DNA of 64,000 nucleotides from an uncultured Rhodobiaceae bacterium (GTDB lineage Bacteria > Pseudomonadota > Alphaproteobacteria > Rhizobiales > TMED25), in the NCBI GenBank assembly GCA_913045225.1, contig CAJWPC010000002.1, forward strand, positions 124,001 through 188,000. Direction: 5' to 3'. The translations under genes were made by a program, and so were the position numbers. Shown one piece after another: positions 15,046 through 30,884 of the stretch (its first letter is position 1; every line of letters starts with the position of its first letter). The notes beneath the pieces were generated by a model that ran no database searches, was not told where the DNA came from, and saw only the letters and a list, made by a program, of their open reading frames with translations.

Positions 15046-16101
15046 TTAACGAAATTGATTATTAATTTCTTCTAATTCTTCGCCCCCAGGACATAGATCA
15101 TTCATTGAAAGTGAGTTCAATGGTTTTGAGGACGTGTTGAGTGTATCATGTAGATCAGACTTATCGGGATCGACATATAATAGTCCTGTCGTGACTTTAC
15201 CGTCACTCCTATTATTCCTAAGTGTATTTAATACTTTATGAGGATCGGTAGGATCGTGATCTGCCCCGAGTTTTTTAAAACTAATATCATTACCGTTGTG
15301 AAGTTTTATAGTAACTGTCTCACCCTCTGCATATGAGGTATTAATTGTCTCTTCTTCTGGTATAAAGTCGAGCTCACCAAAAAGCGATCTGTGCTCGCGT
15401 ATATAATCATAACTCTTTGTTGAATATCCATGATTATTGAAAGTTACACACGGCGATATAACGTCAATGAATGAAAAACCGTTATATTGAAGGGCGGATT
15501 TCAATAAAGGGACGAGTTGTTCTTTATCTCCTGAAAAGCTCCGTGCTACAAAACCAGCACCAAGTTCAATTGCCATTATGGCCAAGTCTATGGCACCAAA
15601 TGGGTTGTCTAGACCTTTCTTATTCTTTGATTCTTTATCATTTGTTGCTGAGAACTGACCTTTTGTAAGACCATAGGTCCCATTGTTCTCACATATGTAT
15701 GTTAAGTTTAGCTGTCTTCTTATTGCGTGACAATACTGACCAAGACCAATAGATGCAGTGTCACCGTCACCAGAAACACCTATATATACCAAGTCTCTGT
15801 TAGCTAAGTTTGCGCCGGTTGCTACGGATGGCATTCTACCATGCACGGAGTTGAAACCATGTGCGTTATTTAAAAAATAGTTTGGCGTTTTTGATGAGCA
15901 ACCGATACCTGATAGCTTCGCAATTTTATGTGCTGGTAATGATAATTCATAACATGCATCAATTATTGAAGCTGTAATTGAGTCATGACCACATCCAGCG
16001 CATAAAGTAGAAACAACACCTTCATAATCACGATACGTCAAACCTATTTCGTTTGTCGGTAGCGATGGATGCCTAAATATTGGTTTTTTTATATATGTCA
16101 T
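15046..16101 (-). CDS. korB: 2-oxoacid:ferredoxin oxidoreductase, beta subunit
   Basis: A 351-residue thiamine diphosphate-binding subunit. The N-terminal cysteine motif is TLCAGCGHD, and the ThDP/metal motif is GDGDTASIGLGQ followed by the conserved NNGTYGLTKGQ. A further cysteine (KLSGIGCSSKTPNYF) belongs to the 4Fe-4S site. It decarboxylates 2-oxoglutarate or a related 2-oxoacid to the acyl-CoA and passes electrons through its cluster. The alpha subunit gene is three bases upstream. The C-terminal ~70 residues extend beyond the core beta fold, as in longer KorB proteins. Confidence 0.9.
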   Translation of the reverse strand: MTYIKKPIFRHPSLPTNEIGLTYRDYEGVVSTLCAGCGHDSITASIIDACYELSLPAHKIAKLSGIGCSSKTPNYFLNNAHGFNSVHGRMPSVATGANLANRDLVYIGVSGDGDTASIGLGQYCHAIRRQLNLTYICENNGTYGLTKGQFSATNDKESKNKKGLDNPFGAIDLAIMAIELGAGFVARSFSGDKEQLVPLLKSALQYNGFSFIDVISPCVTFNNHGYSTKSYDYIREHRSLFGELDFIPEEETINTSYAEGETVTIKLHNGNDISFKKLGADHDPTDPHKVLNTLRNNRSDGKVTTGLLYVDPDKSDLHDTLNTSSKPLNSLSMNDLCPGGEELEEINNQFR

Positions 16102-16104
16102 TTG

Positions 16105-17946
16105 CTATACTATCTTTATTGGTGGTGAATTTGCCGCTTTTATATTCTTATTATTATTTATAATCTCAGTAATATTGTTTACAATAAAATTAGCAGTTAG
16201 AGGCATGCCATCATAGTTTAGTATCGAGATTAATTTATTTGTATCTAAATCTTCTTCAGAAATTAGGAGTTTTTTCATCTGTGCATCACGATTTTGCTCA
16301 AGCACGAATACAAATTCATGGTCGTTTATAAAATCAACAACTGATTTTGAGAAGGGAAATGCTCTAATTCTCAGATGATTTATACCAATGCCATTTCTTG
16401 TTAAATCTTGCATAGCATCATTTAGTGCAACATTCGTACTACCGAAGTTAATTATTCCAATTTTTGATTTTGGGCTATTTAAATTTATTATTGGGTGCGG
16501 CAAATACTCTTTAGCTGTATCGAATTTTTTTGTAATCCTGTCAAGCATTTCAGCGTGTATCATTCCATTCTCGGTGTATCCACCTGTATCTGTATGTGAT
16601 GTCCCTCTAGTGAAGTACGAGCCATAGTCTGGATGTGTAGCAGGTATGGTCCTGTAGGGTATTCCATCACCGTCGACATCTCTATAGCGCGCAAATGATT
16701 TTAGCTTTTCAATATCCTCTGAGGTCACAAGTTTACCACGATCGTGTGAATAATTATCATCCCATTTAAACTGATCAACAACCCAGTCGTTCATTCCAAT
16801 ATCAAGGTCACTTAATACCATAATCGGTGTTTGAAATTTTTCAGCGTAATCAAATGCCTTGTATCCAAACTCAAAACATTCATTCGGGTCGGACGGTAAT
16901 AATAGTATATGTTTTGTATCACCATGTGATGCATAAGCGCATGTCAAGATATCTGATTGCTGTGTTCTTGTTGGCATTCCTGTTGATGGACCACCTCTTT
17001 GAATATTAAATAATACAAGAGGTATTTCGGCAAAATAGGCTAACCCTAAAAATTCACCCATCAGTGAAACACCAGGTCCCGATGTGGATGTGAAAGCTCT
17101 AGATCCATTCCAATTTGCACCAATGGCCATTCCAACAGATGACAGTTCGTCTTCTGCTTGAATTACTGCAGCATTTATATTCCCGTCTTTATCTTTGCGT
17201 AATTTGTTTGCATGCTTTTCAAAAGCCTCAACTAGAGATGTGGATGGAGTAATTGGATACCAAGATGCAACGGTAGCACCACCGTAAAGCGCCCCAAGTG
17301 CAGCTGCTTCATTCCCATTAATCATTATCTTATTCGCGTTTCTATTACATTTTCTCACTTGTTTGTCCAAGGGATATTCGATGTTGTCAGCAACGTACTT
17401 TCTACCAATTGTTAGAGCTTTTAAATTTGCATCAAAGAGATTTTGTTTTCCCTTAAACTGTTCTGATAATAGTTTTTCTATTACATCAATATCGATTCCA
17501 ATAAGTAGGCTCAAGCCTCCTAAGTATACAATATTTTTGAATAACTGCCTCTGTCTTTGATCGGTATATTCTGCTGCACACAGTTTTGCTATTGGGATAC
17601 CAATGACTCTGATATCATCTCTATCAAATTTTCTTTGAATACTATTATCATATATAAAGGTTCCACCACTTGCTACCTCATCAATATCACTTGCATAAGT
17701 TTGAGCGTTCATAGCAACCATAACATCGACTTTTTCCTTACGTGCTAATTTTTCACTTTCCGAAATAGTAATTTCATACCATGTGGGAAGCCCTTGTATG
17801 TTTGAAGGAAATATGTTTTTTGCAGATATTGGAATTCCCATACGGTAGAGGGACTTTGCACAAAATGTATTAGCGCTGGCAGACCCAGAACCATTTACAT
17901 TTGCAAATTTAATTACCAACTCGTTGTATGTTATGTTACTCGACAT
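16105..17946 (-). CDS. korA: 2-oxoacid:ferredoxin oxidoreductase, fused gamma-alpha subunit
   Basis: A protein of 613 residues from the ATG at 17946; a TTG two codons earlier is less likely. The N-terminal ~190 residues form the gamma domain (NGSGSASANTFCAKSLYRMG). A linker leads to the alpha domain beginning NGNEAAALGALYGGATVASW and YPITPSTSLVEAF, with GPGVSLMGEFLGLAYFAEIP. The fused arrangement is typical of bacterial KorA. With KorB it oxidises a 2-oxoacid and reduces ferredoxin. Its start overlaps the end of the upstream GltD-like gene by 11 bases, so the two are tightly coupled. The substrate is not certain. Confidence 0.9.
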   Translation of the reverse strand: MSSNITYNELVIKFANVNGSGSASANTFCAKSLYRMGIPISAKNIFPSNIQGLPTWYEITISESEKLARKEKVDVMVAMNAQTYASDIDEVASGGTFIYDNSIQRKFDRDDIRVIGIPIAKLCAAEYTDQRQRQLFKNIVYLGGLSLLIGIDIDVIEKLLSEQFKGKQNLFDANLKALTIGRKYVADNIEYPLDKQVRKCNRNANKIMINGNEAAALGALYGGATVASWYPITPSTSLVEAFEKHANKLRKDKDGNINAAVIQAEDELSSVGMAIGANWNGSRAFTSTSGPGVSLMGEFLGLAYFAEIPLVLFNIQRGGPSTGMPTRTQQSDILTCAYASHGDTKHILLLPSDPNECFEFGYKAFDYAEKFQTPIMVLSDLDIGMNDWVVDQFKWDDNYSHDRGKLVTSEDIEKLKSFARYRDVDGDGIPYRTIPATHPDYGSYFTRGTSHTDTGGYTENGMIHAEMLDRITKKFDTAKEYLPHPIINLNSPKSKIGIINFGSTNVALNDAMQDLTRNGIGINHLRIRAFPFSKSVVDFINDHEFVFVLEQNRDAQMKKLLISEEDLDTNKLISILNYDGMPLTANFIVNNITEIINNNKNIKAANSPPIKIV

Positions 17947-19729
17947 ATTCAAATATACTGCTTTTATCAGCGTGTGCCTCTATGTATGTGAATTTTTGCA
18001 TATCCCAAGCCCCTGTTGGGCATCTTTCCGCACAAAGACCACAGTGCAGGCACATATCTTCATCTTTAACCATAACTCTTCCTGTCTTTAGATTATCAGA
18101 AACCAAAATATCTTGTGACAAATTTAGAGCGGGTACAGTTAATTTTTTTCTAAGGTTTTCTTCAGTATCATTCTGTGTAAAGTTTATGCAATCAATTGGA
18201 CAAATATCCACGCAAGCGTCACATTCGATACATAGGCTTTCAGAAAATACGGTTTGAATATCGCAATTTAAACATCTTTGAGCTTCTTCAAAAGCTAATT
18301 TTTCATCATAACCTAGCTCAACTTCCATGTTGAGATCAGTCAGGGATAATTCTTTTTCTGCATGTGGGACTGCAAATCTATCAGAGTTTGATATATCATT
18401 TGGGTATGACCATTCATGAATACCCATTTTCTGACTTACAAGATTTGTGAGTGGGCTTGGTCTATCCTCTAAATCCTTGTTATTACAAAAATGATCTATG
18501 GATATTGCTGCTTGGTGGCCATGTGCAACAGCCCAGATAATGTTTTCGGGTCCCCAAGCGGCATCACCCCCAAAAAAAACTCTTGGTAAGGTTGATTGGA
18601 AGGTAACTTTGTTAACCTCAGGTTGATTCCATTGATTGAATTCAATACCAATATCTCTCTCAATCCATGGAAATGCATTTTCTTGACCGATTGCGAGGAG
18701 TACATCATCACACTCAAAGAAGATTGTCTCACCAGTTGGGATTAGTTTCCTTTTTCCGTCTTTATATTTTGCTTCCATTTTTTCAAAGAGCACACCTTTC
18801 AATTTTCCATTTTCATGAACAAATTCTTTAGGGGAGTGATTATCAAAAATTGGAATTCCTTCTAGCTCAGCTTCTTCGATTTCCCAGTCTGAAGCTTTCA
18901 TGTCAGCCTTAGGACTTCGGACGGTCACTTTGACATCTTTTCCTCCAAGTCTGAGTGATGTCCTACAGCAATCCATTGCAGTGTTGCCCCCACCAATAAC
19001 GACAACCTTTTTACCAATTTTATCTACATGTTTAAATGCCACACTTGTAAGCCAGTCAATCCCCACATGTATATTACTGCTGGCTTCTTCCCTACCTGGT
19101 ATATCAAGATCTTTACCTTTTGGGGCACCTGTGCCAATAAATATTGCATCATAATCTTGTTGAATTATTGACTTGAGACTTTTAACTTCTTCGTTGAATT
19201 TTTTCACAACACCAAAGTCTAAAATTCTATCCACTTCTTCATCGATAACACCTACTGGTAGCCTGAAGGATGGAATATTAGTTCTCATGAGCCCACCAGC
19301 TTTTGGATCTTTCTCATACACAGTGCAGTCATAACCAAGTGGCATTAGATCCCTCGCTACTGTCAGTGATGCTGGACCGCCACCAATTAATGCAATCTTT
19401 TTACCATTTTTTTTGCTTGGTATTTCTGGTAATAGACTGCTTACGTCAGACTTATTGTCCGCTGCCGCTCTCTTAAGTCTGCATATTGCTACTGGCTCTT
19501 CCTCTACTCTTACTCTGCGGCATGCAGGCTCGCAGGGTCTGTCACATGTTCTTCCCAGAACTCCGGGAAAGACATTTGATTCCCAGTTGATCATGTACGC
19601 TTCAGTGTATTTTCTTTGAGCGATTAACCTGATATATTCAGGCACCGGTGTATGTGCAGGGCACGCCCATTGACAATCTACAACTTTATGATAGTAATTT
19701 GGATTTTTTGTATCTGTAGGCTTCATCAT
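17936..19729 (-). CDS. GltD-like FAD/NAD(P) oxidoreductase with C-terminal 2x[4Fe-4S] ferredoxin domain
   Basis: A 597-residue flavo-iron-sulfur protein. The N-terminus has the GltD-type cluster-binding cysteines (CQWACPAHTPVPEY; TCDRPCEPACRR). FAD binding is at IALIGGGPASLTVARDL and NAD(P) binding at VVVIGGGNTAMDC. The C-terminal 80 residues carry two ferredoxin motifs (CIECDACVDICP and CLHCGLCAERCP). It is first in an operon with korA and korB. That context suggests it moves electrons between KorAB, ferredoxin clusters and NAD(P), rather than acting as the glutamate synthase small subunit; no gltB is nearby. The electron route is inferred. Confidence 0.88.
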   Translation of the reverse strand: MMKPTDTKNPNYYHKVVDCQWACPAHTPVPEYIRLIAQRKYTEAYMINWESNVFPGVLGRTCDRPCEPACRRVRVEEEPVAICRLKRAAADNKSDVSSLLPEIPSKKNGKKIALIGGGPASLTVARDLMPLGYDCTVYEKDPKAGGLMRTNIPSFRLPVGVIDEEVDRILDFGVVKKFNEEVKSLKSIIQQDYDAIFIGTGAPKGKDLDIPGREEASSNIHVGIDWLTSVAFKHVDKIGKKVVVIGGGNTAMDCCRTSLRLGGKDVKVTVRSPKADMKASDWEIEEAELEGIPIFDNHSPKEFVHENGKLKGVLFEKMEAKYKDGKRKLIPTGETIFFECDDVLLAIGQENAFPWIERDIGIEFNQWNQPEVNKVTFQSTLPRVFFGGDAAWGPENIIWAVAHGHQAAISIDHFCNNKDLEDRPSPLTNLVSQKMGIHEWSYPNDISNSDRFAVPHAEKELSLTDLNMEVELGYDEKLAFEEAQRCLNCDIQTVFSESLCIECDACVDICPIDCINFTQNDTEENLRKKLTVPALNLSQDILVSDNLKTGRVMVKDEDMCLHCGLCAERCPTGAWDMQKFTYIEAHADKSSIFEYVE

Positions 19730-19956: not shown

Positions 19957-21015
19957 ATGGACAGATTAAATGTAGGAATAATCGGCACAGGATGGTGCGG
20001 GGGTATTAGGGCTGAGGCATCCGCAAAAAATGGCTTAGTTGATCAGCTCCATATTTGTGAAATAAGAGAAGATAGATTGAAAGAGGTAGCCGATCTTACT
20101 AATCCGACCAGTGCAACCCTTGATTACAAAGACTTATTAAAAAACGACGATATTCATGCAATAATGATATCAACAACTCCAGAGAGTACACACTATCCAA
20201 TCGCAAAAGAGACTCTAGAGGCGGGTAAGCATCTATTACTCGAAAAACCAATCTCAAGAACACTCACTGAAGCGGATGAGCTAATCAGTCTTGCGGAAAA
20301 AAATAAAGTTCAATTTACAATTGGTTATTCTCAAAGATTTCGATCTAAGTATGCTTATGTTCGTGAAAAATTTATAGATGGAACACTGGGAGAGCCTGTG
20401 AGTGTTTTGATATCAAGAAATATTACAACGCAACTTTCCAAGAGAATAACAGGAAGAACAAGACTATCTCCAGCAGCAATGGAAGCTACACATGACCTTG
20501 ATTACGCACTTTGGTGTCTTGCCCCAAGAAAACCTGTTAAAGTCTATTCACAGCAAGTAGAAAAAGTTCTTATAAAAAATTCAAACTCAGCAGATTGTCA
20601 GTTCATAATGGTGACGCTCGATGATGGGACAGTTGTTACAGTTGGTGCTGGATGGGTATTACCACCAAGTTATCCCAATTACTCATCAACCAAAATGGAA
20701 TTTATTGGGTCAAAGGGCGCGATTATTCTAGATGATACACACAATGATGTAACGATAATGACCGGTGAAAGAGGAATTGAATATCCAATGTCATCGATGC
20801 CAGGTGAACCAGTCGGTCACGTGAATGCCGGTCCTATGGCTGAGGAAACAAATAATTTTATCGACGCGATCCTGTTCAATAAGCCTGTAATAGTGAAACC
20901 TAGGGAGGCAAGGGTTGTTATGGAATTATATCAGGCAGCGGACCTCTCTGCTGAAAGAGGCGAGCCAATTAATCTGCCCATCAATATAGACCCACTTGAA
21001 GCGGGGCAAGCTTAA
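19957..21015 (+). CDS. Gfo/Idh/MocA-family oxidoreductase
   Basis: A 352-residue NAD(P)-dependent dehydrogenase. It has the Rossmann start VGIIGTGWCGGIRAEA, the family motif LLEKPISRTLTEAD and the C-terminal alpha/beta substrate domain (SPAAMEATHDLDYALWCLA). Relatives oxidise inositol or other polyols, or hexose derivatives. A strong ribosome binding site (AAAGGGGG) precedes the ATG. The stop overlaps the start of a second Gfo/Idh gene by one base, so the two paralogues are probably made together and may act on successive or related substrates. Confidence 0.88.
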   Translation: MDRLNVGIIGTGWCGGIRAEASAKNGLVDQLHICEIREDRLKEVADLTNPTSATLDYKDLLKNDDIHAIMISTTPESTHYPIAKETLEAGKHLLLEKPISRTLTEADELISLAEKNKVQFTIGYSQRFRSKYAYVREKFIDGTLGEPVSVLISRNITTQLSKRITGRTRLSPAAMEATHDLDYALWCLAPRKPVKVYSQQVEKVLIKNSNSADCQFIMVTLDDGTVVTVGAGWVLPPSYPNYSSTKMEFIGSKGAIILDDTHNDVTIMTGERGIEYPMSSMPGEPVGHVNAGPMAEETNNFIDAILFNKPVIVKPREARVVMELYQAADLSAERGEPINLPINIDPLEAGQA

Positions 21016-22121
21016 TGAAAGATATTGGATTAGCAGTTATCGGTTGTGGTACAATTGGGAGAATTAGAGCTGAATTAGCCCGCGACTATCCTGGTATTAA
21101 ATGGCTTGGACTGTGTGATATCCGGAAAGAAGTAGCTGAGAAATTAGCATCCGATTGCAATGCTGATTTTTACACAACAGATTTTAATGAGCTTTTGAGT
21201 AGGAGCGAAGTTAATGCTGTTATTATTGCAACAGAAGAGAATGCACATGTTGAGCCTACGCTGAAGGCCGTAGAGATGGGGCATTCATTATTTATTGAAA
21301 AACCACTGGCCACTAACCCGCTAGACTCTAGAAAAATTATTGATGCAATTGAGAGCAACAATATAGACACCGCCATGGGGTACACAAATAGATTTAGACG
21401 CAGATTTCTTGCAGTCAAGGAGAGGCTTACAACCGGTCAAATTGGTCACGTTCATTCCGTAGTCACAAGGGCATTTATGAACAAAATGGTCCCAATTGCG
21501 ACAATAAATAAAACAAATGATCGTCAAAATCTCACGCCGATGGTTGTCTCAGGTACGCATAGCCTCGACATGTCAATGTGGTTGATGGAGGGAAAAAATC
21601 CTGTCAGCGTATACGCTAAATCAGTTGATGGTGTACTCAATCAATGGGGTACAAAAGACTCCACCTTTGGCATATTCACAATGGATGATGGGACTATTTG
21701 GAGTATGAATATTTCTTGGGCCTTACCAGAAGTTTGGCCTGGATCAGTTTATGGCTTGGAAATAGGTATTGTTGGAACCGAGGGTGTTATTGACATTGAG
21801 GATACTCATCGTGATTTAGTTTTAGCGTCGAATATTGCACAGGGTGCAGGATACACATCGAGAGAGTATTCCCCACCACAAGGTAGGCACGTTGATTTTT
21901 TAACCAGTTATCCTGCTGGTGATATTCAAGGGGGGCAATTCTGGGGTCCAATGCGAGAAGAAACTAATACATGGTACACACGCTTGTGCACAGGTCAAGA
22001 TACTCCCCACGCCACAGCTCAAGATGGGCATAGAAATCTACTTATGACTATGGCTATGGATTTATCTGCAAAAGAAGAAAAGGAAATTATCTTACCCGAA
22101 AGAATGGATGATATATTCTAG
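21015..22121 (+). CDS. Gfo/Idh/MocA-family oxidoreductase (second copy)
   Basis: A 368-residue paralogue of the preceding enzyme. The nucleotide-binding start is LAVIGCGTIGRIRAELA, FIEKPLATNPLDS is the EKP motif, and the substrate domain has MVVSGTHSLDMSMWLMEGK. Compared with its neighbour it has a longer C-terminal region with two tryptophans (GGQFWGPMREETNTWYTRL). The single-base TAATG junction implies coupled translation. The two proteins are clearly diverged, so this is an old duplication and not a recent repeat. The substrate is unknown. Confidence 0.87.
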   Translation: MKDIGLAVIGCGTIGRIRAELARDYPGIKWLGLCDIRKEVAEKLASDCNADFYTTDFNELLSRSEVNAVIIATEENAHVEPTLKAVEMGHSLFIEKPLATNPLDSRKIIDAIESNNIDTAMGYTNRFRRRFLAVKERLTTGQIGHVHSVVTRAFMNKMVPIATINKTNDRQNLTPMVVSGTHSLDMSMWLMEGKNPVSVYAKSVDGVLNQWGTKDSTFGIFTMDDGTIWSMNISWALPEVWPGSVYGLEIGIVGTEGVIDIEDTHRDLVLASNIAQGAGYTSREYSPPQGRHVDFLTSYPAGDIQGGQFWGPMREETNTWYTRLCTGQDTPHATAQDGHRNLLMTMAMDLSAKEEKEIILPERMDDIF

Positions 22122-22132
22122 TTCATAATTTT

Positions 22133-23056
22133 TCATAATATTTTTCTAATATGATCTGGGAACTTTTCGATAACATTATGGCCGGCTTCAAAGCATTTTA
22201 ATTTCATTTCGTCACGAAGTATTTCGTTTAATTCTATTATCTCTGCCCCACTCATTTTCAAATATTTCATACATTTTTCATCCTCATTGATTGCGAGCTG
22301 TCTTTGGTAAACAGTTGCTCTCTTTATGAGAGTAATAAGGTTATCCTGGAATGGCTTATCCCAACTATAGTATTTCTTTTTATTGCATAATAAAATTGAG
22401 GTTCCGTATAGATGAGACGATAAGGTAATATATTTATGGTATTCCTCAATACCGTAATTAATGATATTTGTGAGTGGATTTTCTTGTGTATCTATTTCGT
22501 TTTGAATGATTGCATTCTTTAGGTTCTTAACATCAACAAATTTAGTTGCGAAGCCAAGCGACTCGAATGCCATTTTGTGCATGCTATTTTTGGCAATCCG
22601 TATTGTCAGATTTTTGCAATCATCTATGGACTTAATATTTTTTTTATTTGAAGATAAGTGGCGAATCCCGTTATCCCACCATCCAATTACTTTATAGCCT
22701 GTATTGAGTTCAACTTTGTTTGATAAGTATTCGCCTATTTCCCCATCAAGCAAATTGTAAACCATTTCTCTGCTTGATATTTGAAATGGGATTTCAAATA
22801 TATTTAGCTCATTTACTCTCCCTGTAAGATAGCTTGAAAAAAAATAGCAACAATCTATCTGACCATCTTCAACAAGGTGAAGCAGGTCTATGGCATTGTA
22901 GCCTAAATCTCCAACATCTGAGACAAATTTGAAATCAACATCGTCACCATAGAGCATTTTAAACTCATTTCTTAGAAAATGAATACTTTGCGCTTGAACC
23001 GACTTTTCAGGATGATATCCAGCCCAATATATACTATTCTTTGCCAATATGCTCAC
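22133..23056 (-). CDS. TRAP-type (DctP-like) solute-binding protein without signal peptide
   Basis: A 307-residue protein with the DctP fold. The hallmarks are GWWDNGIRHLSSNKKNIKS, the KNLTIRIAKNSMHKMAFESLG arginine-containing ligand region and IDTQENPLTNI. DctP proteins normally have a signal peptide and feed organic acids to a DctQM permease. Here the GTG start is only three codons after an in-frame TAA, so no N-terminal export signal can be encoded. No TRAP permease gene is in the window. It may be a cytoplasmic sensor or binding protein, or a decaying gene, though the reading frame is intact over its full length. Confidence 0.75.
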   Translation of the reverse strand: MSILAKNSIYWAGYHPEKSVQAQSIHFLRNEFKMLYGDDVDFKFVSDVGDLGYNAIDLLHLVEDGQIDCCYFFSSYLTGRVNELNIFEIPFQISSREMVYNLLDGEIGEYLSNKVELNTGYKVIGWWDNGIRHLSSNKKNIKSIDDCKNLTIRIAKNSMHKMAFESLGFATKFVDVKNLKNAIIQNEIDTQENPLTNIINYGIEEYHKYITLSSHLYGTSILLCNKKKYYSWDKPFQDNLITLIKRATVYQRQLAINEDEKCMKYLKMSGAEIIELNEILRDEMKLKCFEAGHNVIEKFPDHIRKIL

Positions 23057-23062
23057 CGCAAA

Positions 23063-23950
23063 TTAATCATTGATAAGTTTTTCATATTCGTTATAAAGCA
23101 ATGAAAAGTCTATATCTGCGAGACCGCAAGATATTGCATTTTGTAATATTGACGTAGTCAGCTCGCCATAAGGGCAGCCAATTTGATTATCATTCAGTAA
23201 GTCGGTGACCATACTTAAATCCTTGTGGAGGTTAGAAACACGCGATCTAGCGTCCCATTTTTCTGATAATATATGATTTGGGAATCTCGACTGTGATATA
23301 TAGCTTCTTGCATTACCTGAATTAAACACATCAATAACTGTCTTAGGATCAATACCAAGTTTTTTGGCACCAATGACCCCTTCAACAGTCGCAAGAAATA
23401 TTGTATGCGTAACCATATTATGTATAAGCTTAAGTGCATGCCCTGATCCAATCTTACCCACATGAATTAGTCTGTTGGTAAAAGTATCTAATACGGGAGT
23501 TACTGAGTCTATAATACCTTTATCGCCACCCATCATTAATGTTAGAGTTGCATTTTCCGCACCCTGAGCTCCTCCGGTCATTCCACAATCAATATAATTT
23601 ATTTTCCGAACACTTAATTCGTTTGATAATTTTTTTGTCGCATCAGGGTTTGACGTTGTAAGGTCAATTACAATTGTGTTTTCATTAATATTATCAATCC
23701 AGTTTGAGCCAAAAAGAAAGTCTCTAATTTGTGTTGTACTTGGAACAACAAAGATAAGTACATTAGAAGATTTCAAGCCCTTTTTTGCATCATTAATAAT
23801 AAGATTTTCGCTTTTATTAAATTTACTAAGAACACTTTCATTAATCTCAAAAATAGAATTTAGATACCCAGCATTTTGTATATTTTTCGCAATTCCAAGT
23901 CCCATCTGACCTATGCCAACAACAGAAACAAATGGCGTAATATTTTTCAT
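23063..23950 (-). CDS. 3-hydroxyisobutyrate dehydrogenase-like enzyme
   Basis: A 295-residue beta-hydroxyacid dehydrogenase with NAD(P) motif VVGIGQMGLGIAKNIQ, substrate loop DCGMTGGAQGAENATLTLM, and the catalytic lysine segment GSGHALKLIHNMV. The family includes 3-hydroxyisobutyrate, tartronate semialdehyde and 2-hydroxy-3-oxopropionate reductases. Its ATG overlaps the cupin stop by four bases, and its own TAA is followed in the same frame by the DctP-like gene. It is probably the dehydrogenase step of a small acid-degradation operon. Confidence 0.87.
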   Translation of the reverse strand: MKNITPFVSVVGIGQMGLGIAKNIQNAGYLNSIFEINESVLSKFNKSENLIINDAKKGLKSSNVLIFVVPSTTQIRDFLFGSNWIDNINENTIVIDLTTSNPDATKKLSNELSVRKINYIDCGMTGGAQGAENATLTLMMGGDKGIIDSVTPVLDTFTNRLIHVGKIGSGHALKLIHNMVTHTIFLATVEGVIGAKKLGIDPKTVIDVFNSGNARSYISQSRFPNHILSEKWDARSRVSNLHKDLSMVTDLLNDNQIGCPYGELTTSILQNAISCGLADIDFSLLYNEYEKLIND

Positions 23951-24354
23951 TTTGTTACTTTATCCCCTGATGAGAGATGCTGAACAGTTTCCCCTGTCTC
24001 TGTAAAGGTTCTAGTTACATTTGTTTCACCGTATATCCAAAATATTGTGAGGGGTTCATCTCCAATATTATTAAACCTATGTGGTACATTTGCCGGTATA
24101 AAAGAGTTATCCATTGCTGTTAATTCAGTCTTAATTCCCCCGCATTCAACTTCTGCATGACCGGAAATTATTAATACTTGTTCACAGCAATTATGGCTAT
24201 GCATAGGTGCCGCTCTTCCCGTTGGAAAGGTTGTAAATCCTGACGTGAATATTGTACCCTCGGCATTATCCTTACCATAGAGTAGAGCTGTAGATACGCC
24301 ATCACCTCTATCGAAGTTTGGCCTATCCTCATATTTTATTATAGTGGCTGTCAT
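23947..24354 (-). CDS. Small cupin-domain protein
   Basis: A 135-residue single-domain cupin. The first motif contains HSHNCCEQVLIISG with the two-histidine metal-ligand pattern, and the second is FIPANVPHRFNNIG. Such proteins bind a divalent metal and act as isomerases, dioxygenases or sensors; the activity cannot be inferred. It sits between a DUF1330 gene and a hydroxyacid dehydrogenase, in an operon, with a GGGAG ribosome binding site before its ATG. Confidence 0.85.
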   Translation of the reverse strand: MTATIIKYEDRPNFDRGDGVSTALLYGKDNAEGTIFTSGFTTFPTGRAAPMHSHNCCEQVLIISGHAEVECGGIKTELTAMDNSFIPANVPHRFNNIGDEPLTIFWIYGETNVTRTFTETGETVQHLSSGDKVTK

Positions 24355-24375: not shown

Positions 24376-24666
24376 TTAATTACTTTCAACAAAAACAATA
24401 TCAACATCTCCTGAACCATTTCTTCTATTCGATGCGGCATTTTTATACTCTTCTGACTCAAAACAATTTATAGCAGTTTGTTTATCTGGAAATTCGGCAA
24501 TCACAAACCTTGTAAAATGATCGGTGCCCTCCATAATTTGGTAATCACCACCTCGTGTGAGAAAACGACCGCCATAGCTCTCAACTATATCTCCAGCCTT
24601 ACTTGCATATTTTTGATATGACTTATTATTAATTATTTTTGCCCTTGCTATCCAATATGTGACCAT
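24376..24666 (-). CDS. DUF1330-family protein
   Basis: A 96-residue dimeric alpha/beta-barrel (ferredoxin-like) protein with the family pattern YWIARAKIINNKSYQKYASK, RFLTRGGDYQIMEG and RFVIAEFPDKQTAINCFES. Members are common in alphaproteobacterial catabolic operons, but have no established reaction. It is the first gene of the leftward DUF1330-cupin-dehydrogenase-DctP set and is divergent from the Ldh-family gene. Confidence 0.85.
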   Translation of the reverse strand: MVTYWIARAKIINNKSYQKYASKAGDIVESYGGRFLTRGGDYQIMEGTDHFTRFVIAEFPDKQTAINCFESEEYKNAASNRRNGSGDVDIVFVESN

Positions 24667-24772: not shown

Positions 24773-25831
24773 ATGAAAGAAAATTTGAGGCGCATTAGCG
24801 AAGATCAGTTATTCAATTTTATAAAGACTGCATTAATTACAATTGGGTTACCTCAAGATAATGCAAATATTGTTGCGAAGCTGATGACGCAAGCCGATCT
24901 TATTGGAAGCGATGCACACGGTGTCTTTAGATTGCCCCAATACACAAAAAGACTCTTGGCAGGTGGAATAAATAAAACACCAAATATCCGAATTGAGCGT
25001 GAAAAGAATTCAATGGCAGTTTTGAATGGTGACAATGCTATGGGTCATCTCGTGATGGAGCATGCTGCAAACCTGGCTGTCAAAAAAGCAAAAGAGAACG
25101 GCGTTGCTTGGGTTGGGGCAAATTCATCAAATCACGCTGGGCCGGCATCATTGTATGCACGAATTCCTCTAGAACATAATATGATTGGCATTTATGTTGC
25201 GGTGGGTAGTGGAAACCATGTGCCGCCATGGGGTGGAACAGACCTACTTCTATCAACAAATCCTATCGCAATTACAGTTCCAAGCTGGAATGAGCCTCCA
25301 ATTGTATTAGATATGGCAACTACAGTCGCGGCTTACGGGAAGGTCAAAGAAAAGCTACAAAGAAATGAAGAAATGCCTGTGGGGTGGATGATTGATGGGG
25401 AAGGCAAGCCACTAACTGACCCAAAAAAATCCAGTGAAGGCTATTTGCTTCCAATTGGTGAAGCAAAGGGTTACGGCCTTGCTCTGATGTTTGGTATTCT
25501 TGCAGGTACATTGAATGGTGCATCATTTGGTAAAGCGGTGGTAGATTTTAATGCTGATGCATCCAGTTTTACAAATACAGGTCATTTCATAATTGCAGTT
25601 GACATCGCCTCTTTCACAGAAGTTGAAGGTTTCAAAAAAAATATTGATCAAGTATGGACTGAGATGAAGGGATCAAAATTAATGCCTGGTTTCAATGAAA
25701 TAAGACTGCCTGGTGAACGATCTCATCAGATTTATCTTGATAGAACAAAAAATGGTATTCCTATACATGAGAATTTAAAAAATGTCTTGGATGCATTATC
25801 CGAGCAATTAAATATTAATAAAATATACTGA
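24773..25831 (+). CDS. Malate/L-lactate-type (Ldh family, YiaK/AllD-like) dehydrogenase
   Basis: A 352-residue NAD(P)-dependent 2-hydroxyacid or ureidoglycolate-type dehydrogenase of the Ldh/AllD/YiaK family, distinct from classic LDH. Family blocks are QADLIGSDAHGVFRLPQY, the catalytic-histidine segment GANSSNHAGPASLYA, LLSTNPIAITVP and KGYGLALMFGILAGTLNGA. Length is normal. The flavin reductase gene follows after 11 bases. It is divergent from the DUF1330-cupin operon. Possible substrates are 2-oxo/hydroxy acids such as sulfolactate, malate or sugar acids. Confidence 0.9.
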   Translation: MKENLRRISEDQLFNFIKTALITIGLPQDNANIVAKLMTQADLIGSDAHGVFRLPQYTKRLLAGGINKTPNIRIEREKNSMAVLNGDNAMGHLVMEHAANLAVKKAKENGVAWVGANSSNHAGPASLYARIPLEHNMIGIYVAVGSGNHVPPWGGTDLLLSTNPIAITVPSWNEPPIVLDMATTVAAYGKVKEKLQRNEEMPVGWMIDGEGKPLTDPKKSSEGYLLPIGEAKGYGLALMFGILAGTLNGASFGKAVVDFNADASSFTNTGHFIIAVDIASFTEVEGFKKNIDQVWTEMKGSKLMPGFNEIRLPGERSHQIYLDRTKNGIPIHENLKNVLDALSEQLNINKIY

Positions 25832-25842
25832 AATTTAAAAGC

Positions 25843-26310
25843 ATGGAAAATACAAATGATCTAAGGAAAGCTATGGGTTGCTTCGCAACAGGTGTAGCGA
25901 TTATTACGACCTCAGATGAGCAATTTGAACCTATTGGTGTTACAATTAATTCATTTACTTCATTATCTCTTGAGCCACCACTTATTATGTGGGGACTCTC
26001 CAAAAAAGCCCCAAGCCTTGATGCCTTTAAATACAGAAGGTTATTTGAAGTGAATATACTCTCGAGTGAACAAGAAGAATTATTAAAGATATTTTCGACC
26101 CCATCGGAAAATAAATTTTTAAATGTTCGATGGGATATGAGTGAGAAGAAACTACCAAAAATTAGAGGGTGTATCGCAAACTTCGAGTGCGTTGTACATT
26201 CAATTTTTCCAGGAGGGGATCATGAAATTTTTGTTGGTAATGTAATTGACTACTCCCATACAGATTTGAAACCACTTGTACTGTCAAAGGGAAAGGTAAT
26301 CAGCAACTAA
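25843..26310 (+). CDS. Flavin reductase-like FMN-binding protein
   Basis: A 155-residue protein of the flavin reductase (HpaC/NADH:FMN oxidoreductase) family. It begins RKAMGCFATGVAIITTSDE, has the FMN-binding VTINSFTSLSLEPPLIMWGL, and ends with the HEIFVGNVIDY segment. Such proteins supply reduced flavin to two-component monooxygenases. No partner monooxygenase is adjacent; the only flavin monooxygenase in the window lies far away at the right edge. It ends four bases from the convergent dehydrogenase gene. Confidence 0.85.
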   Translation: MENTNDLRKAMGCFATGVAIITTSDEQFEPIGVTINSFTSLSLEPPLIMWGLSKKAPSLDAFKYRRLFEVNILSSEQEELLKIFSTPSENKFLNVRWDMSEKKLPKIRGCIANFECVVHSIFPGGDHEIFVGNVIDYSHTDLKPLVLSKGKVISN

Positions 26311-26314
26311 TACT

Positions 26315-27277
26315 CTAAGCCTTAATTGGATATACAGGCTCTTCGCCATTTAGTACTCTTGCAACATCTGAAGCAGCTTTTGTCTGTAGTTCTTCGAGCG
26401 CTTCTACTGAGTAAAAGGCCGTATGCGGCGCAAGTATCACATTATCCCTTCCTATGAGTGGAGAATTTTCTGGCAAGGGCTCAGTCTCTACAACGTCCAA
26501 ACCAGCTCCACCAATTTCATTCTTATCGAGGGCTTCTATCAAATCTTTCTCATTGATAAGTGGGCCACGCGCTGTATTCACAATAATTGCAGTATCTTTC
26601 ATTTTTTTGAATGCGTCTTTATTTACCAAACCCTTTGTCTCTGGGAGTAAGGGGGCATGTACAGAAATGAAGTCTGATCTTTCATATAATTCATCCATGC
26701 TAACGCTTTCGACTCCATACTTTTCAAATAGTTCTTTTGGTGCGTATGGGTCAGAGGCAATCACATTAAAGCCAAATGCCTGAGCCTTAGGTGTCATAAG
26801 TCTGGGAATATTTCCAAATCCAATAAGACCCACAGTTTTACCTCTTAACCTGTACATTGGGACAACGGCTGGCATCTCCCATCTGCCGGATTGAACAAGT
26901 TTGTTTGATTGTGGTATTTTTCTTGCCATTGATATAATCATAGCCATTGCTTGGTCTGATACTTCATCAAGGCAGTAATCTGGAACATAATTAACAGATA
27001 TCCCTAACTCACCAGCAACTTTTAGATCTATATTATCAACACCAATTCCAAACCGACCTATCGCCTTACAATTTTTTAGGCTTCTTAGTATGTTTTCATT
27101 TAGCTTAGCATAAGTAACTAGGATTGCATCTGCATTCTCAGCAGCTTTAATTATATCTTCCTCAGAACTGCTGGGGGCCTGAACGACCTCAGCATTAGCG
27201 TCTTCCAGCGCCTTTTTTGCTGGATCTAGTGAAGGAAATGGGCTATCAGTTACAACTACAAGTGGACCATTATTCAT
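26315..27277 (-). CDS. D-2-hydroxyacid dehydrogenase (CtBP-like)
   Basis: A 320-residue enzyme of the D-2-hydroxyacid dehydrogenase family, closest in form to the bacterial C-terminal-binding-protein type. It shows RFGIGVDNIDLKVA, LRGKTVGLIGFGNIPR as the NAD-binding site, VNTARGPLINEKDL (catalytic Arg), the Glu in DVVETEP and the His in LAPHTAFYS. It is the last gene of a four-gene leftward operon. The substrate is unknown. Confidence 0.88.
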   Translation of the reverse strand: MNNGPLVVVTDSPFPSLDPAKKALEDANAEVVQAPSSSEEDIIKAAENADAILVTYAKLNENILRSLKNCKAIGRFGIGVDNIDLKVAGELGISVNYVPDYCLDEVSDQAMAMIISMARKIPQSNKLVQSGRWEMPAVVPMYRLRGKTVGLIGFGNIPRLMTPKAQAFGFNVIASDPYAPKELFEKYGVESVSMDELYERSDFISVHAPLLPETKGLVNKDAFKKMKDTAIIVNTARGPLINEKDLIEALDKNEIGGAGLDVVETEPLPENSPLIGRDNVILAPHTAFYSVEALEELQTKAASDVARVLNGEEPVYPIKA

Positions 27278-27285
27278 TTAAATAC

Positions 27286-28278
27286 CTATTTTTTTAAAGT
27301 TTCGGGGTTGACGCAATTTGGTGGTGTTGTCCCATCAATCAGCGCTTCAATATTATCTACAACTCTATGAGCCATACCTTCGCGCACATCCTTACCGGCG
27401 GACCCAAGATGTGGCGCTAAAACGACATTATCCATCGCAAATAATTCTTTTTCGATCTGTGGCTCGTTTTCATAAACATCTAGGCCAGCTCCAGCAATTT
27501 CACCATTTTGAAGCGCTCTTACCATTGCTTTCTCATCGATTATGGGCCCTCTTGCTGTATTGATTATATAAGCAGATTTTTTCATAAGTTTAAATTCTTT
27601 GTCGGATATCAAATGAATTGTCTCTGGTCTTTCTGCAGCATGAACTGAAACAAAATCTGACTGCTTGAATAATTCCTCATATTCGACATATTCAAATCCA
27701 AATTCAGCTTCATCTTCCGGTGTCATCCTATTTGGCCCCCAGTATATTACTTTCATGCCAAAGCCTTTGCCACGAACTCCCGTTGCTTTACCGATTCTTC
27801 CTCTCCCTCCAACAAGGCCGAGTGTCTTCCCGGAGACATCACCACCTAAAAATAAAGCCGATTGAGCTCCTGGATAACCTCCCGCTCGAACGAAACGATC
27901 TGCCTCAAGTATTCTTCTTGCTACACATAATAGAAGCCCAAAAGCTATATCAGCTGTTGCATCTGTCACAACTGCTGGTATTACCGTAACAGGCATGCCT
28001 ATCTCTGTTGCACCCTTTACATCAATTCTATCAGGTGTAATTGACTGTGATGCAACCGCTTTAAGATTTGGATTGGCTTGCATAATTTTTTTATCTACGA
28101 CGTCATGTAATAAACAGTATAGAATATCACAATGCATTACTTCATCCATGAGTGTGTCGTATGGTATAATTTTTGATGCATCTGGGTATACTTTTATTTC
28201 GACGTCACCTCGTTGTTCCAACCTCTCAATAGCACTTTGTGCTATTGGTTGAGTTATAAATATCTTTGTTTTTACCAT
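27286..28278 (-). CDS. D-2-hydroxyacid dehydrogenase
   Basis: A 330-residue NAD(P)-dependent dehydrogenase, a second member of the D-2-hydroxyacid family in this operon. The NAD motif is LGLVGGRGRIGKATG, with INTARGPIIDEKAM, DVYENEP and LAPHLGSAG carrying the catalytic Arg, Glu and His. It is well diverged from its downstream neighbour. A good ribosome binding site (AAAGGGG) precedes the ATG. Glyoxylate/hydroxypyruvate reduction is a possible role but is not shown by the sequence. Confidence 0.88.
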   Translation of the reverse strand: MVKTKIFITQPIAQSAIERLEQRGDVEIKVYPDASKIIPYDTLMDEVMHCDILYCLLHDVVDKKIMQANPNLKAVASQSITPDRIDVKGATEIGMPVTVIPAVVTDATADIAFGLLLCVARRILEADRFVRAGGYPGAQSALFLGGDVSGKTLGLVGGRGRIGKATGVRGKGFGMKVIYWGPNRMTPEDEAEFGFEYVEYEELFKQSDFVSVHAAERPETIHLISDKEFKLMKKSAYIINTARGPIIDEKAMVRALQNGEIAGAGLDVYENEPQIEKELFAMDNVVLAPHLGSAGKDVREGMAHRVVDNIEALIDGTTPPNCVNPETLKK

Positions 28279-28292
28279 TTTATTGCCCCTTT

Positions 28293-29537
28293 TTATTTAT
28301 CAGTTATTAATCTCTCATCAAATGGCGTTCTCGACATGATATGTGGCCCATCCTCCGTTACTAGCACCATTTCTTCAAGACGAACTCCGCCACCGCCTCT
28401 GACACCATCAATCCAAATTAACGGTTCAACAGCAAATACCATTCCAGGCTCAAATTCATACTCCGGAGCACCGGGAAGAGTTTCTCCAATATAAGGCGGT
28501 TCATTTGCTCCAATACCGACACCGTGGCCAATAAATAATGATAAAAAACGTCCGCCAAGGCCAAATTTTGATGCCTCATTTATGAGTGCATTTGCAGAGT
28601 CTTTATTTGTCTTACCTGGTCTCATTTCATTGATACCAGCTTGTAGACCATAATACACTGCACTGTATACATTTATTTGTTCTTTTGACGGTGATGATGC
28701 TTGTGTACCACAATAAACTGTCCTTGCCATATCGCCAAAATAGCCATTCCATGCTGCCCCAATATCAATAAAGACCAAATCTCCATCTCTGATAATTTTA
28801 TCAGAACAGATTCTATTTGGTGGTGCCATGTGCTCGCCTGATGCAACGAAAGGTGTTGTCACATGTGAGTATTCCCCTCCTAGAGTATATAGCGTGTGCA
28901 TTGCATTGGCTGCAACATCACACTCACGAACACCTTCCTGAACGGAATTAATTGCAGTTGCACAAACTGCGTCAGCAATTGCTGTGGCTTCCTCAAGCAT
29001 GACAATCTCACCGGGCAATTTTATCATCCTTGCTTTCTGCATGGGTGTATCACCATCCTCGATAGATAAATTTGGAAAATGCTCTTCAAGTGTCTTATGG
29101 AAAATAATATTTGACTCATCCAGTCCAATTTTTGCTTTATCTAGTTTATATTTTTTAAGAACTGGTCCAAGTATATCCTTTACAAGACCATGAATAAGTG
29201 CTTTTTCCTCAATAATTGGGATGGTATGAACTTCTTTAATCCATGGCATTGTTCTATCAATTCTATCTCTTTCGCCACCAGAGCAAAAAAGAATCGGCTC
29301 TTCATTCTCAACTAAGAGTGCACCGTTTAAACAAGTTGATTTTCCATGAATAATCTGAGGCCTGAGGTCGGTAAGATAGCGTTGATTTTCATCTTTCCAA
29401 ACAAGAAGTGCATCAAGCCCTGCTTTTTTAAGCTCAGTCCTCACCTTTTCTATTCGTTGTGATCTGAGCTCTGATGGAGAAACCCTCTCCTCATAGCTGA
29501 CATTAAATCCTCCACGGGCGTAATGATCAATCTTCAT
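28293..29537 (-). CDS. M24-family aminopeptidase/creatinase-like hydrolase
   Basis: A 414-residue pita-bread-fold hydrolase with an N-terminal creatinase-type domain (about 1-170) and a C-terminal M24 domain. The metal ligands are present: FIDIGAAWNGYFGDMAR (two Asp), GHGVGIGANEP (His), MVFAVEPLIW (Glu) and RLEEMVLV (Glu). It could be an Xaa-Pro dipeptidase or a creatinase-like amidinohydrolase. Its place between a lyase/synthase gene and a dehydrogenase gene favours a catabolic amide or ester substrate over peptide turnover, which is an inference. Confidence 0.85.
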   Translation of the reverse strand: MKIDHYARGGFNVSYEERVSPSELRSQRIEKVRTELKKAGLDALLVWKDENQRYLTDLRPQIIHGKSTCLNGALLVENEEPILFCSGGERDRIDRTMPWIKEVHTIPIIEEKALIHGLVKDILGPVLKKYKLDKAKIGLDESNIIFHKTLEEHFPNLSIEDGDTPMQKARMIKLPGEIVMLEEATAIADAVCATAINSVQEGVRECDVAANAMHTLYTLGGEYSHVTTPFVASGEHMAPPNRICSDKIIRDGDLVFIDIGAAWNGYFGDMARTVYCGTQASSPSKEQINVYSAVYYGLQAGINEMRPGKTNKDSANALINEASKFGLGGRFLSLFIGHGVGIGANEPPYIGETLPGAPEYEFEPGMVFAVEPLIWIDGVRGGGGVRLEEMVLVTEDGPHIMSRTPFDERLITDK

Positions 29538-29550
29538 GCTAATTCCTCAA

Positions 29551-30771
29551 TTAAGATAAAGTATCTTCAGCAATTTTTCTGAACTCATCATCATTCATGA
29601 GTCTTTTGTTTTGAAGACCCCAATCTTTGATCGCCATTAGGATATCCATTGCTTGTTTATCATCTGCTTTAATTTGGAATCTATCAAGCCTATCTTTTAT
29701 TGAGTCAATTCCAGAACCTTTTCCTATTACTATTTCAGGTTCTTTTTGTCCGACCATACTCGGTCTAAATGGAAATAATTCGGTCTGGTTTTCATACCCG
29801 CAGTTAATTAGCCAGTTTGCTATGATTCCAGACTCGACATTGAATAAGTCATCACCAACAATTGGCCTATTTGAAGGAACATTTACCCCAGATAAATCCC
29901 GGACCAAGTCTGCAATACCTTTTAGGTTTTCGGTTTTTATACCAATATCCTTATTATACAACGTTTTAAGAGCCATTACTGTCTCCTCTGTTGGGACATT
30001 ACCTGCTCTTTCACCTAGACCGAGCACGGTAGAATGGATAACTTCAACGCCCATCGATACAGCCATTAGTGTATTTGCAATTCCTAAGCCAAAATCTTGA
30101 TGGAAATGAGCTTCAAGAGGTACATTTATTCTCTCTTTAACTGCACTCACAAAATATGGCATTGCGTGAATTGATGTTGCACCCATTGTATCAACCAATG
30201 CGAGAGCATCCATGTGCCCTTCATTTCCAACTTTTTCAATGAGATCAATAACCCATTTAAGGTCTGACCTTGAGAAATCTATAGGAAAAAATACCACTTT
30301 CAGACCGTTGTCATGGGCATATTTTGTTGACTCTATTGATAAATCAATAGCACGCTCTAATTCCCATCTATAGCCAAGCTCAATTAAATGCTGACTTGAT
30401 GGTACTTCCATCACGACACCAGATACACCAGCATCTACAGCACGCTGAACGTCATCAACCATACATCTTGCAAATGAGAATATTTCAGGTCCAAGATTTC
30501 TTTTTGCTAGATCTGATACAACCTTTGCATCCTGATGAGAAACAACAGGCATACCTGCTTCAATTCTATGTATTCCAGCTTCTGCTAATGCTTCAGCTAT
30601 CTTTATTTTATCATCATAGTTAAATGCAACACCAGTTTGTTGCTCTCCATCTCTCAGTGTGACATCATGGATTTGTATTTTTTCAGGAAAATTAATTTCC
30701 TTTGTGACTTCTGGTGCAAAATTCCACTGACTAGTTAGCCATTGATCTGATTTCCAAGGTGTATTTGACAT
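29551..30771 (-). CDS. HMGL-like (pyruvate carboxyltransferase fold) lyase/synthase
   Basis: A TIM-barrel enzyme of 406 residues if the ATG at 30771 is used. A GGGAG ribosome binding site lies just upstream of that ATG, whereas longer starts at 30783 (ATG) and 30831 (TTG) lack one. Family motifs are IHDVTLRDGEQQTGVAF near the N-terminus and EAHFHQDFGLGIANTL as the metal-binding HxH site, with GLGERAGNVPTEE downstream. It resembles homocitrate/isopropylmalate synthases but lacks the LeuA allosteric domain, so a catabolic aldolase or lyase role is equally possible. It is first of the four-gene operon ending at 26315. Confidence 0.83.
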   Translation of the reverse strand: MSNTPWKSDQWLTSQWNFAPEVTKEINFPEKIQIHDVTLRDGEQQTGVAFNYDDKIKIAEALAEAGIHRIEAGMPVVSHQDAKVVSDLAKRNLGPEIFSFARCMVDDVQRAVDAGVSGVVMEVPSSQHLIELGYRWELERAIDLSIESTKYAHDNGLKVVFFPIDFSRSDLKWVIDLIEKVGNEGHMDALALVDTMGATSIHAMPYFVSAVKERINVPLEAHFHQDFGLGIANTLMAVSMGVEVIHSTVLGLGERAGNVPTEETVMALKTLYNKDIGIKTENLKGIADLVRDLSGVNVPSNRPIVGDDLFNVESGIIANWLINCGYENQTELFPFRPSMVGQKEPEIVIGKGSGIDSIKDRLDRFQIKADDKQAMDILMAIKDWGLQNKRLMNDDEFRKIAEDTLS

Positions 30772-30884
30772 TTTATCTCCCATCTTACTTTCTAGTGTAT
30801 CCCGTATACTTACGAGTGTGATAAATAACAATTTTTTAGTTATATATATTTTTGTGCCAATTTTGAAGAAAAAAATTAAACAAA

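Follow-up and report, generated by a model that had tools for sequence, protein, structure and literature searches.

A DctP-family protein without export signal, found beside dehydrogenase genes, belongs to a clade for which sequence comparisons suggest a job inside the cell

Our findings that a DctP-family protein encoded in the window (the whole 64,000-nucleotide stretch of DNA analysed here, from an uncultured Rhodobiaceae bacterium) has, like its clade, no export signal and no matching transporter, and that it has dehydrogenases for gene neighbours, suggest that it may have a job inside the cell. With a probability of roughly 0.58, we take the protein to be a cytosolic, carboxylate-binding and perhaps catalytic member of the DctP fold, one that would serve an organic-acid breakdown pathway rather than act as a TRAP receptor. 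The host genome is 1.34 Mb in size and 99% complete, and the genes that matter are arranged in the window as follows.

19957-21015, plus strand: Gfo/Idh/MocA dehydrogenase 2 (Gfo2), by Pfam
21015-22121, plus strand: Gfo/Idh/MocA dehydrogenase 1 (Gfo1), by Pfam
22133-23056, minus strand: DctP-family (PF03480) frame read from a GTG start, 307 aa, without signal peptide, by Pfam
22133-23047, minus strand: signal-less DctP, likely true coding sequence read from a TTG start, 304 aa, the start being kept in relatives
23048-23062, minus strand: junction between the dehydrogenase stop and the TTG, 15 nt, with a Shine-Dalgarno-like GGTGA at 23057-23053
23063-23950, minus strand: 3-hydroxyisobutyrate/2-hydroxy-3-oxopropionate-type dehydrogenase with NAD_binding_2 and NAD_binding_11, 295 aa, by Pfam
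23947-24354, minus strand: cupin protein gene overlapping the dehydrogenase start by 4 nt, by Pfam
24376-24666, minus strand: DUF1330 protein gene, first of the same-strand run

Judged by the 4-nt overlap and the spacing, the cupin gene is in the same operon as the dehydrogenase, and the two Gfo genes (19957-22121, plus strand) are oriented toward the dehydrogenase/DctP pair from the opposite side. Close relatives are MAGs assigned to the OCS116 cluster (n=3) and Rhodobiaceae (n=2), which we take to be marine Alphaproteobacteria. Adjoining the module at 15046-19729 are KorB-like, KorA-like (by eye) and GltD-like (below cut-offs) genes, kept in six stretches of the genus and sister genus, one of which is cut. 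On the other side (24773-30831) there are an Ldh_2 dehydrogenase and a flavin reductase (Pfam), two D-2-hydroxyacid-type dehydrogenases (by eye) and M24 peptidase-like and isopropylmalate-synthase-like genes (below cut-offs), most of which stay with the module in both genera.

Family assignment of the DctP is clear-cut with PF03480 (E 3e-49, 168 bits vs a cut-off of 23.4, residues 15-285) and with NF037995 (125.8 bits, cut-off 50), while its TIGR00787 score (146.1 bits) stays below the cut-off of 175.05; Pfam found no output domain on it. An AlphaFold2 model made from five close sequences reached a pLDDT of 47, which is too low for the model to be used. The upstream dehydrogenase matches both NAD_binding_2 and NAD_binding_11, which places it in the 3-hydroxyisobutyrate dehydrogenase family, yet it does not reach the equivalog cut-off (118.7 vs 291.6 bits) for 3-hydroxyisobutyrate dehydrogenase proper (TIGR01692), and none of its 14 NCBIfam matches was at or above cut-off.

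According to the initial annotation, the DctP-like frame continues in register behind the dehydrogenase stop after two sense codons. The coordinates bear this out: on the minus strand, which carries both genes, TAA (23065-23063) is followed by TTT GCG and, in the same frame, by GTG at 23056. That this GTG is also the start, as had been proposed, is a different matter since, although present in frame, it is probably not used. In L003, a 92%-identical relative, the GTG does not lie in frame, which leaves TTG as the sole start, and GGTGA precedes the TTG in L001-L005 (in L004 and L005 as read from the junction sequence). Hence, the true start probably is TTG 23047, and the window GTG would probably form part of the ribosome-binding site. 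TTG stands at the same position in L001-L007 and L011-L013, with AGGA before it in L007 and L011-L013, and L008-L010 have an ATG two codons further in. For each of the 13 family genomes carrying the gene, that of the window among them, the first beta strand must lie close behind the start.

The same annotation saw in the shared frame a chance for stop read-through and a natural fusion of both proteins, a scenario that does not survive comparison across the 13 family genomes (own included), in ten of which our script found the dehydrogenase end. Stop-to-start gaps at ten genus loci (L001-L003, L005-L011) measure 13, 14, 14, 14, 15, 15, 15, 16, 26 and 29 nt, and the L004 junction, read by eye, has 15 nt in register 0 with a TAG stop followed by a second in-frame stop (TGA). 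Altogether, 11 genus genomes (own included) carry the pair, seven of them out of frame and four in frame (L001, L002, L004, L006); the same-frame register is one of three register states within the genus. What speaks for read-through is the single stop in the window itself (L001) and in L002; a further stop stands in frame in L004 and L006, the TTG with its ribosome-binding-site-like GGTGA is kept in L001-L005, another gene lies between dehydrogenase and DctP in L012 and L013, and an opposite-strand gene separates them in the sister genus (L070, L071). With 7/11 pairs out of frame and 2/11 behind two in-frame stops we have rejected the fusion, for which we see next to no chance; its frame is not conserved, and chance and drift would explain the register.

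The claim that a signal peptide cannot be encoded, by contrast, stands: there are 14 residues between the GTG and the start of the Pfam match, with the in-frame TAA shortly before the GTG, which leaves no room for one in this frame. More importantly, the trait is not confined to the window. We compared 33 clade sequences, namely 13 from the window family (own included), ten from other families of the order (eight genomes) and ten from family f220 (four genomes), which is of the same class as the window yet a different order, with 38 other DctPs. In all 33, only a few residues precede beta strand 1 with its motif (A/G/S/V)GYxx, whereas 37 of the 38 others have a hydrophobic leader, the remaining one (L102) being truncated where its contig ends. 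A plain, untrained hydrophobicity window was applied to candidate starts as far as 45 residues upstream (60 in one run). In 26/33 clade sequences no upstream start within 45 residues adds even 15 residues, and the other seven have a best ten-residue hydrophobicity of at most 1.73, compared to at least 1.75 in 36/38 signal-bearing DctPs. Nearest to a signal comes L042, where an upstream start brings in a fairly hydrophobic stretch (1.73). For a signal-bearing sequence, L030, the score was 0.81 at the 45-residue limit and 2.12 at 60 residues, its leader lying just beyond the limit. A wrong gene start hiding a signal was thus considered and dismissed, as none of the upstream starts scored in this way gave a clear signal in any of the 33.

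These signal-less proteins form a group of their own. A profile built from 16 of them gives all 33 at least 313 bits and the 38 other DctPs no more than 201 bits, and one branch with 100/100 support sets the clade off in both a 50-row and a 71-row tree, the latter with a second subclade (GGYGP motif) of nine sequences. The absence of a signal is real, old and clade-wide across two orders. On this unrooted tree, the signal was probably lost rather than gained. As for distribution, a draw of 385 genomes from the class gave clade members in the window genome and four others; 15 genomes had a DctP match, and those in the other ten were signal-bearing or cut. In a draw of 398 genomes from the phylum, the only clade member was that of the window genome, the seven matches outside it (six genomes) all being signal-bearing. 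Family f220 is richer, with matches in 21/24 genomes and up to three in each; starts were checked for signals in four of these 21. Clade-bearing genomes include some of 2.3-6.6 Mb and come from two orders. Searching plasmids with a clade member gave identities of 33% at most among the matches listed (20 of 538 records).

In the window's genus, the signal-less DctP is under purifying selection (dN/dS 0.116, 0.125, 0.068 and 0.060 against four relatives, two more distant pairs being saturated), and none of the listed DctP matches has an internal stop. Residues expected for ligand binding are retained. Arg153 is found in 71/71 sequences, clade and other DctPs alike, and within the clade Arg132, Gln191 and Asn193 are invariant (33/33) and Glu192 nearly so (32/33). 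Residues 58-275 of the window protein match SiaP 52-269, ranges of equal length that place Arg153 putatively at SiaP Arg147, a residue described as required for high-affinity carboxylate binding (PMC4646407). The clade differs from other DctPs in cysteines, with a mean of 3.8 per mature chain vs 0.45 (Mann-Whitney p 1e-12, the rows being related), which is what a reducing compartment would lead one to expect. It also has marker residues of its own. Tyr14 and Tyr71 (both 33/33 vs 0/38), His207 (32/33 vs 0/38) and Glu63 (29/33 vs 0/38) are confined to it, and Gly13 (33/33 vs 5/38), Tyr76 (32/33 vs 4/38), Asp175 (32/33 vs 6/38), Ser75 (31/33 vs 7/38) and Asp57 (28/33 vs 3/38) are enriched. Asp57 and Glu63 looked invariant on 23 clade sequences, an impression we dropped with the full 33 (28 and 29, respectively). 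For the window DctP, we infer ligand binding and a cytoplasmic site.

To compare neighbours, we ran tblastn (E 1e-10) with fixed queries on stretches around clade members (4-18 kb; nine of the 13 family genomes and the full set of 20 sequences outside the family) and on 22/38 signal-bearing controls (8-16 kb), related rows being treated as independent in the tests. The window supplied the Gfo and dehydrogenase queries, and clade stretches (L062, L069) supplied two of the three TctA queries and the LVIVD query, which makes the TctA and LVIVD counts less neutral. Gfo1 at 50% identity or more is nearby in 9/9 family stretches, 7/20 clade stretches outside the family and 0/22 controls. The corresponding counts are 9/9, 8/20 and 0/22 for Gfo2 (at least 45% identity) and 9/9, 6/20 and 0/22 for the 3-hydroxyisobutyrate-type dehydrogenase. 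Outside the family, Gfo1 relatives are 68-73% identical and occur in two orders, and Gfo2 relatives are 48-61% identical. In L062, the DctP lies 6 nt from Gfo1, with dehydrogenase and Gfo2 on the same strand within the same 18 kb, and in L115, L118, L120 and L122, all from another order, DctP, Gfo1, Gfo2 and dehydrogenase are together within 16 kb. A close Gfo1 (72-76% identity) was found in five of the order's 383 genomes outside the family, all among the eight with a signal-less DctP, if the two draws of 397 genomes behind the Gfo1 and DctP counts are taken as the same genomes. Three of these five share a family, and two (G044 and G105) have DctP and Gfo1 on different contigs. At the thresholds used, partners are lacking in many stretches outside the family (Gfo1 13/20, Gfo2 12/20, dehydrogenase 14/20), some of which are short or cut by contig ends. 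The second subclade has mostly other neighbours, so the dehydrogenase linkage is strong in part of the clade only.

Two further observations concern this neighbourhood. The window genome has one DctP only and yet two more Gfo1 paralogues (G000:C3:161860-162960, 58%; G000:C1:277196-278272, 53%). In family f220, a protein of about 250 aa with the motif WATWYDLPEDGRDEYLDWLHSDYLP (looser in L122) adjoins the signal-less DctP as judged by eye (L115 8394-9152, minus; L118 8372-9115, minus; L120 6286-7089, plus; L122 6905-7642, plus), and its L118 copy has no Pfam match.

Transport genes show a different picture. The initial annotation had seen no TRAP permease near the DctP, and this extends to the whole 99%-complete genome, where DctM gave no match at E 0.001 (7/14 control genomes have one) and where the window DctP is the only PF03480 match. 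DctM is missing in 7/14 family genomes searched, i.e. the window genome, the five closest by DctP protein (two of these genus genomes having a completeness of just 73 and 77%) and G006 with 53%. Nearby DctM was found in 0/9 clade stretches of the family and 1/20 outside it, compared to 21/22 signal-bearing controls, and the sole case (L114) belongs to a TAXI-type system that brings a receptor of its own. There (L114 4308-8385), a TAXI-type receptor (NMT1_3) and a long DctM, probably a fused DctQM, immediately precede the signal-less DctP. TctA is nearby in 0/9 family stretches, 8/20 clade stretches outside the family (one of them, L065, a 61-bit piece) and 1/22 controls. The Tct operons beside the DctP carry a TctC of their own in L060, L062 and L069 (Pfam) with signal-like starts by eye, and TctC neighbours were also found by similarity in L115 and L118. 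The window genome has a Tct operon on another contig, its TctA being 32% identical to that of L062. This only TctA match lies in a TctC-TctA-TctB-like run (L085 7767-12075, contig C8; TctC and TctB assigned by eye), after which comes an LVIVD-repeat protein. Relatives of this protein are near the signal-less DctP in L062, L064 and L060, but own and L062 copies share 30% identity only.

Based on these comparisons, a scenario may be envisaged in which a DctP-fold clade that lost, or never had, export works in the cytoplasm. An organic acid would be bound in the cleft between the two lobes via conserved Arg153 and either be acted on or be handed over in the course of its breakdown, with the two Gfo/Idh/MocA dehydrogenases and the 3-hydroxyisobutyrate-type dehydrogenase as the pathway enzymes. 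Uptake of the acid would probably fall, in some other lineages, to TctABC-type importers with their own periplasmic receptor. The neighbourhood data support the view that the signal-less DctP belongs with the dehydrogenase. An earlier proposal of a cytoplasmic binding or sensory protein working with that enzyme thus stands in part: it fits with the missing signal, the retained ligand residues and a linkage that recurs in another order, while the sensory side of it lacks an output domain. Whether the protein is catalytic is a guess with about even odds. We lean toward catalysis because there are precedents for binding proteins turning into enzymes, because the clade has marker residues of its own and because there is no constant output or membrane partner. 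The fuller version, in which the clade left transport to become cytosolic enzymes and the TRAP-receptor cleft catalyses a step (isomerisation, lactone opening or elimination, for example) between the two Gfo/Idh/MocA dehydrogenases of an undescribed organic-acid pathway, is tentative and falls somewhat short of even odds.

Several alternatives have to be weighed against a cytosolic, perhaps catalytic role. Rather than changing the acid, the protein might hold it as a carrier or buffer, keep its free level low and pass it on to the dehydrogenases. This would agree with the usual carboxylate-binding residues being kept and with a location next to importers of two unrelated kinds (TctABC and, in L114, TAXI-TRAP), yet the clade-only residues Tyr14, Tyr71 and His207 suggest a changed site, and to our knowledge this fold is rarely found in cytosolic binding proteins of a single domain unless they catalyse or regulate. 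To our minds, a carrier is unlikely, if still the most serious competitor, and slightly less unlikely once a scaffold role is counted in. Alternatively, the acid-bound protein may alter the activity of a dehydrogenase, of a GntR-UTRA regulator or, from the inner side, of the importer by contacting it. SBP-type domains do serve as sensor domains (PMC9602780), and a GntR-UTRA gene adjoins the module in L118 (Pfam), with a similar one in L120 (by eye). However, the window DctP is devoid of an output domain and no GntR gene was recognised by eye beside it, so we regard such ligand sensing as rather improbable, more so than a carrier.

Two further models do away with a cytosolic function altogether. 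One sees in the protein a decaying TRAP receptor, left over in a reduced genome after permease and signal peptide were lost. The small genome and the lack of a DctM match in it and in its five closest genus relatives are in line with this. The signal-less state is, however, common to the whole clade, including the larger genomes of both orders, and the low dN/dS values (0.06-0.125), the intact reading frames and the copy number in f220 (up to three matches per genome, 21/24 genomes) speak for a gene in use; conservation, selection and copy number together led us to rule out a pseudogene or leftover, for which there is hardly any room. The other model assumes export by a non-classical route and a periplasmic receptor role for a TctAB-type or other permease, which could account for TctA near 8/20 clade stretches outside the family. 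With the adjoining Tct operons (L060, L062, L069) having their own TctC and with the high cysteine content, this model is very improbable, although less so than the leftover, and we know of no export route for such a protein that dispenses with a classical signal.

Seen against known systems, the closest is the TRAP receptor DctP (PF03480; NF037995; solved 4p9k, 4ovs, 7bbr, SiaP). The clade resembles it in a family match that spans most of the chain and in keeping the carboxylate arginine and the QEN motif, and it differs in that none of its 33 members has a clear signal peptide, in more cysteines and own marker residues and, for the window genome, in the lack of DctM. NF037995 labels the clade members tested (three) as TRAP substrate-binding proteins despite the absent export signal and the rarity of a TRAP permease nearby. 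At minimum, transporter counts for these marine bacteria are likely to be wrong at this gene. TctC/Bug proteins (PF03401) have a binding-protein fold broadly like that of DctP. They are, however, a different Pfam family, and the signal-less DctP adjoins TctC rather than replacing it.

About 1% of the proteins retrieved by SBP profiles are predicted to be cytosolic, according to a general statement in PMC9602780. A signal-less DctP does not figure in the accessible parts of PMC5812351 and PMC4996985, and among open PMC literature, by titles and openings of abstracts, we found no description of a signal-less or cytosolic DctP. A precedent for a binding-protein fold put to use away from transport is cyclohexadienyl dehydratase, an enzyme that evolved from a solute-binding protein with a cationic amino acid-binding ancestor (PMC7683729). 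It stems from another binding-protein family, and catalysis by the DctP clade is, in comparison, only proposed. If the clade is catalytic, it would add to cyclohexadienyl dehydratase another instance of a binding protein giving rise to enzymes, here with the partner enzymes alongside and the transition open to direct study.
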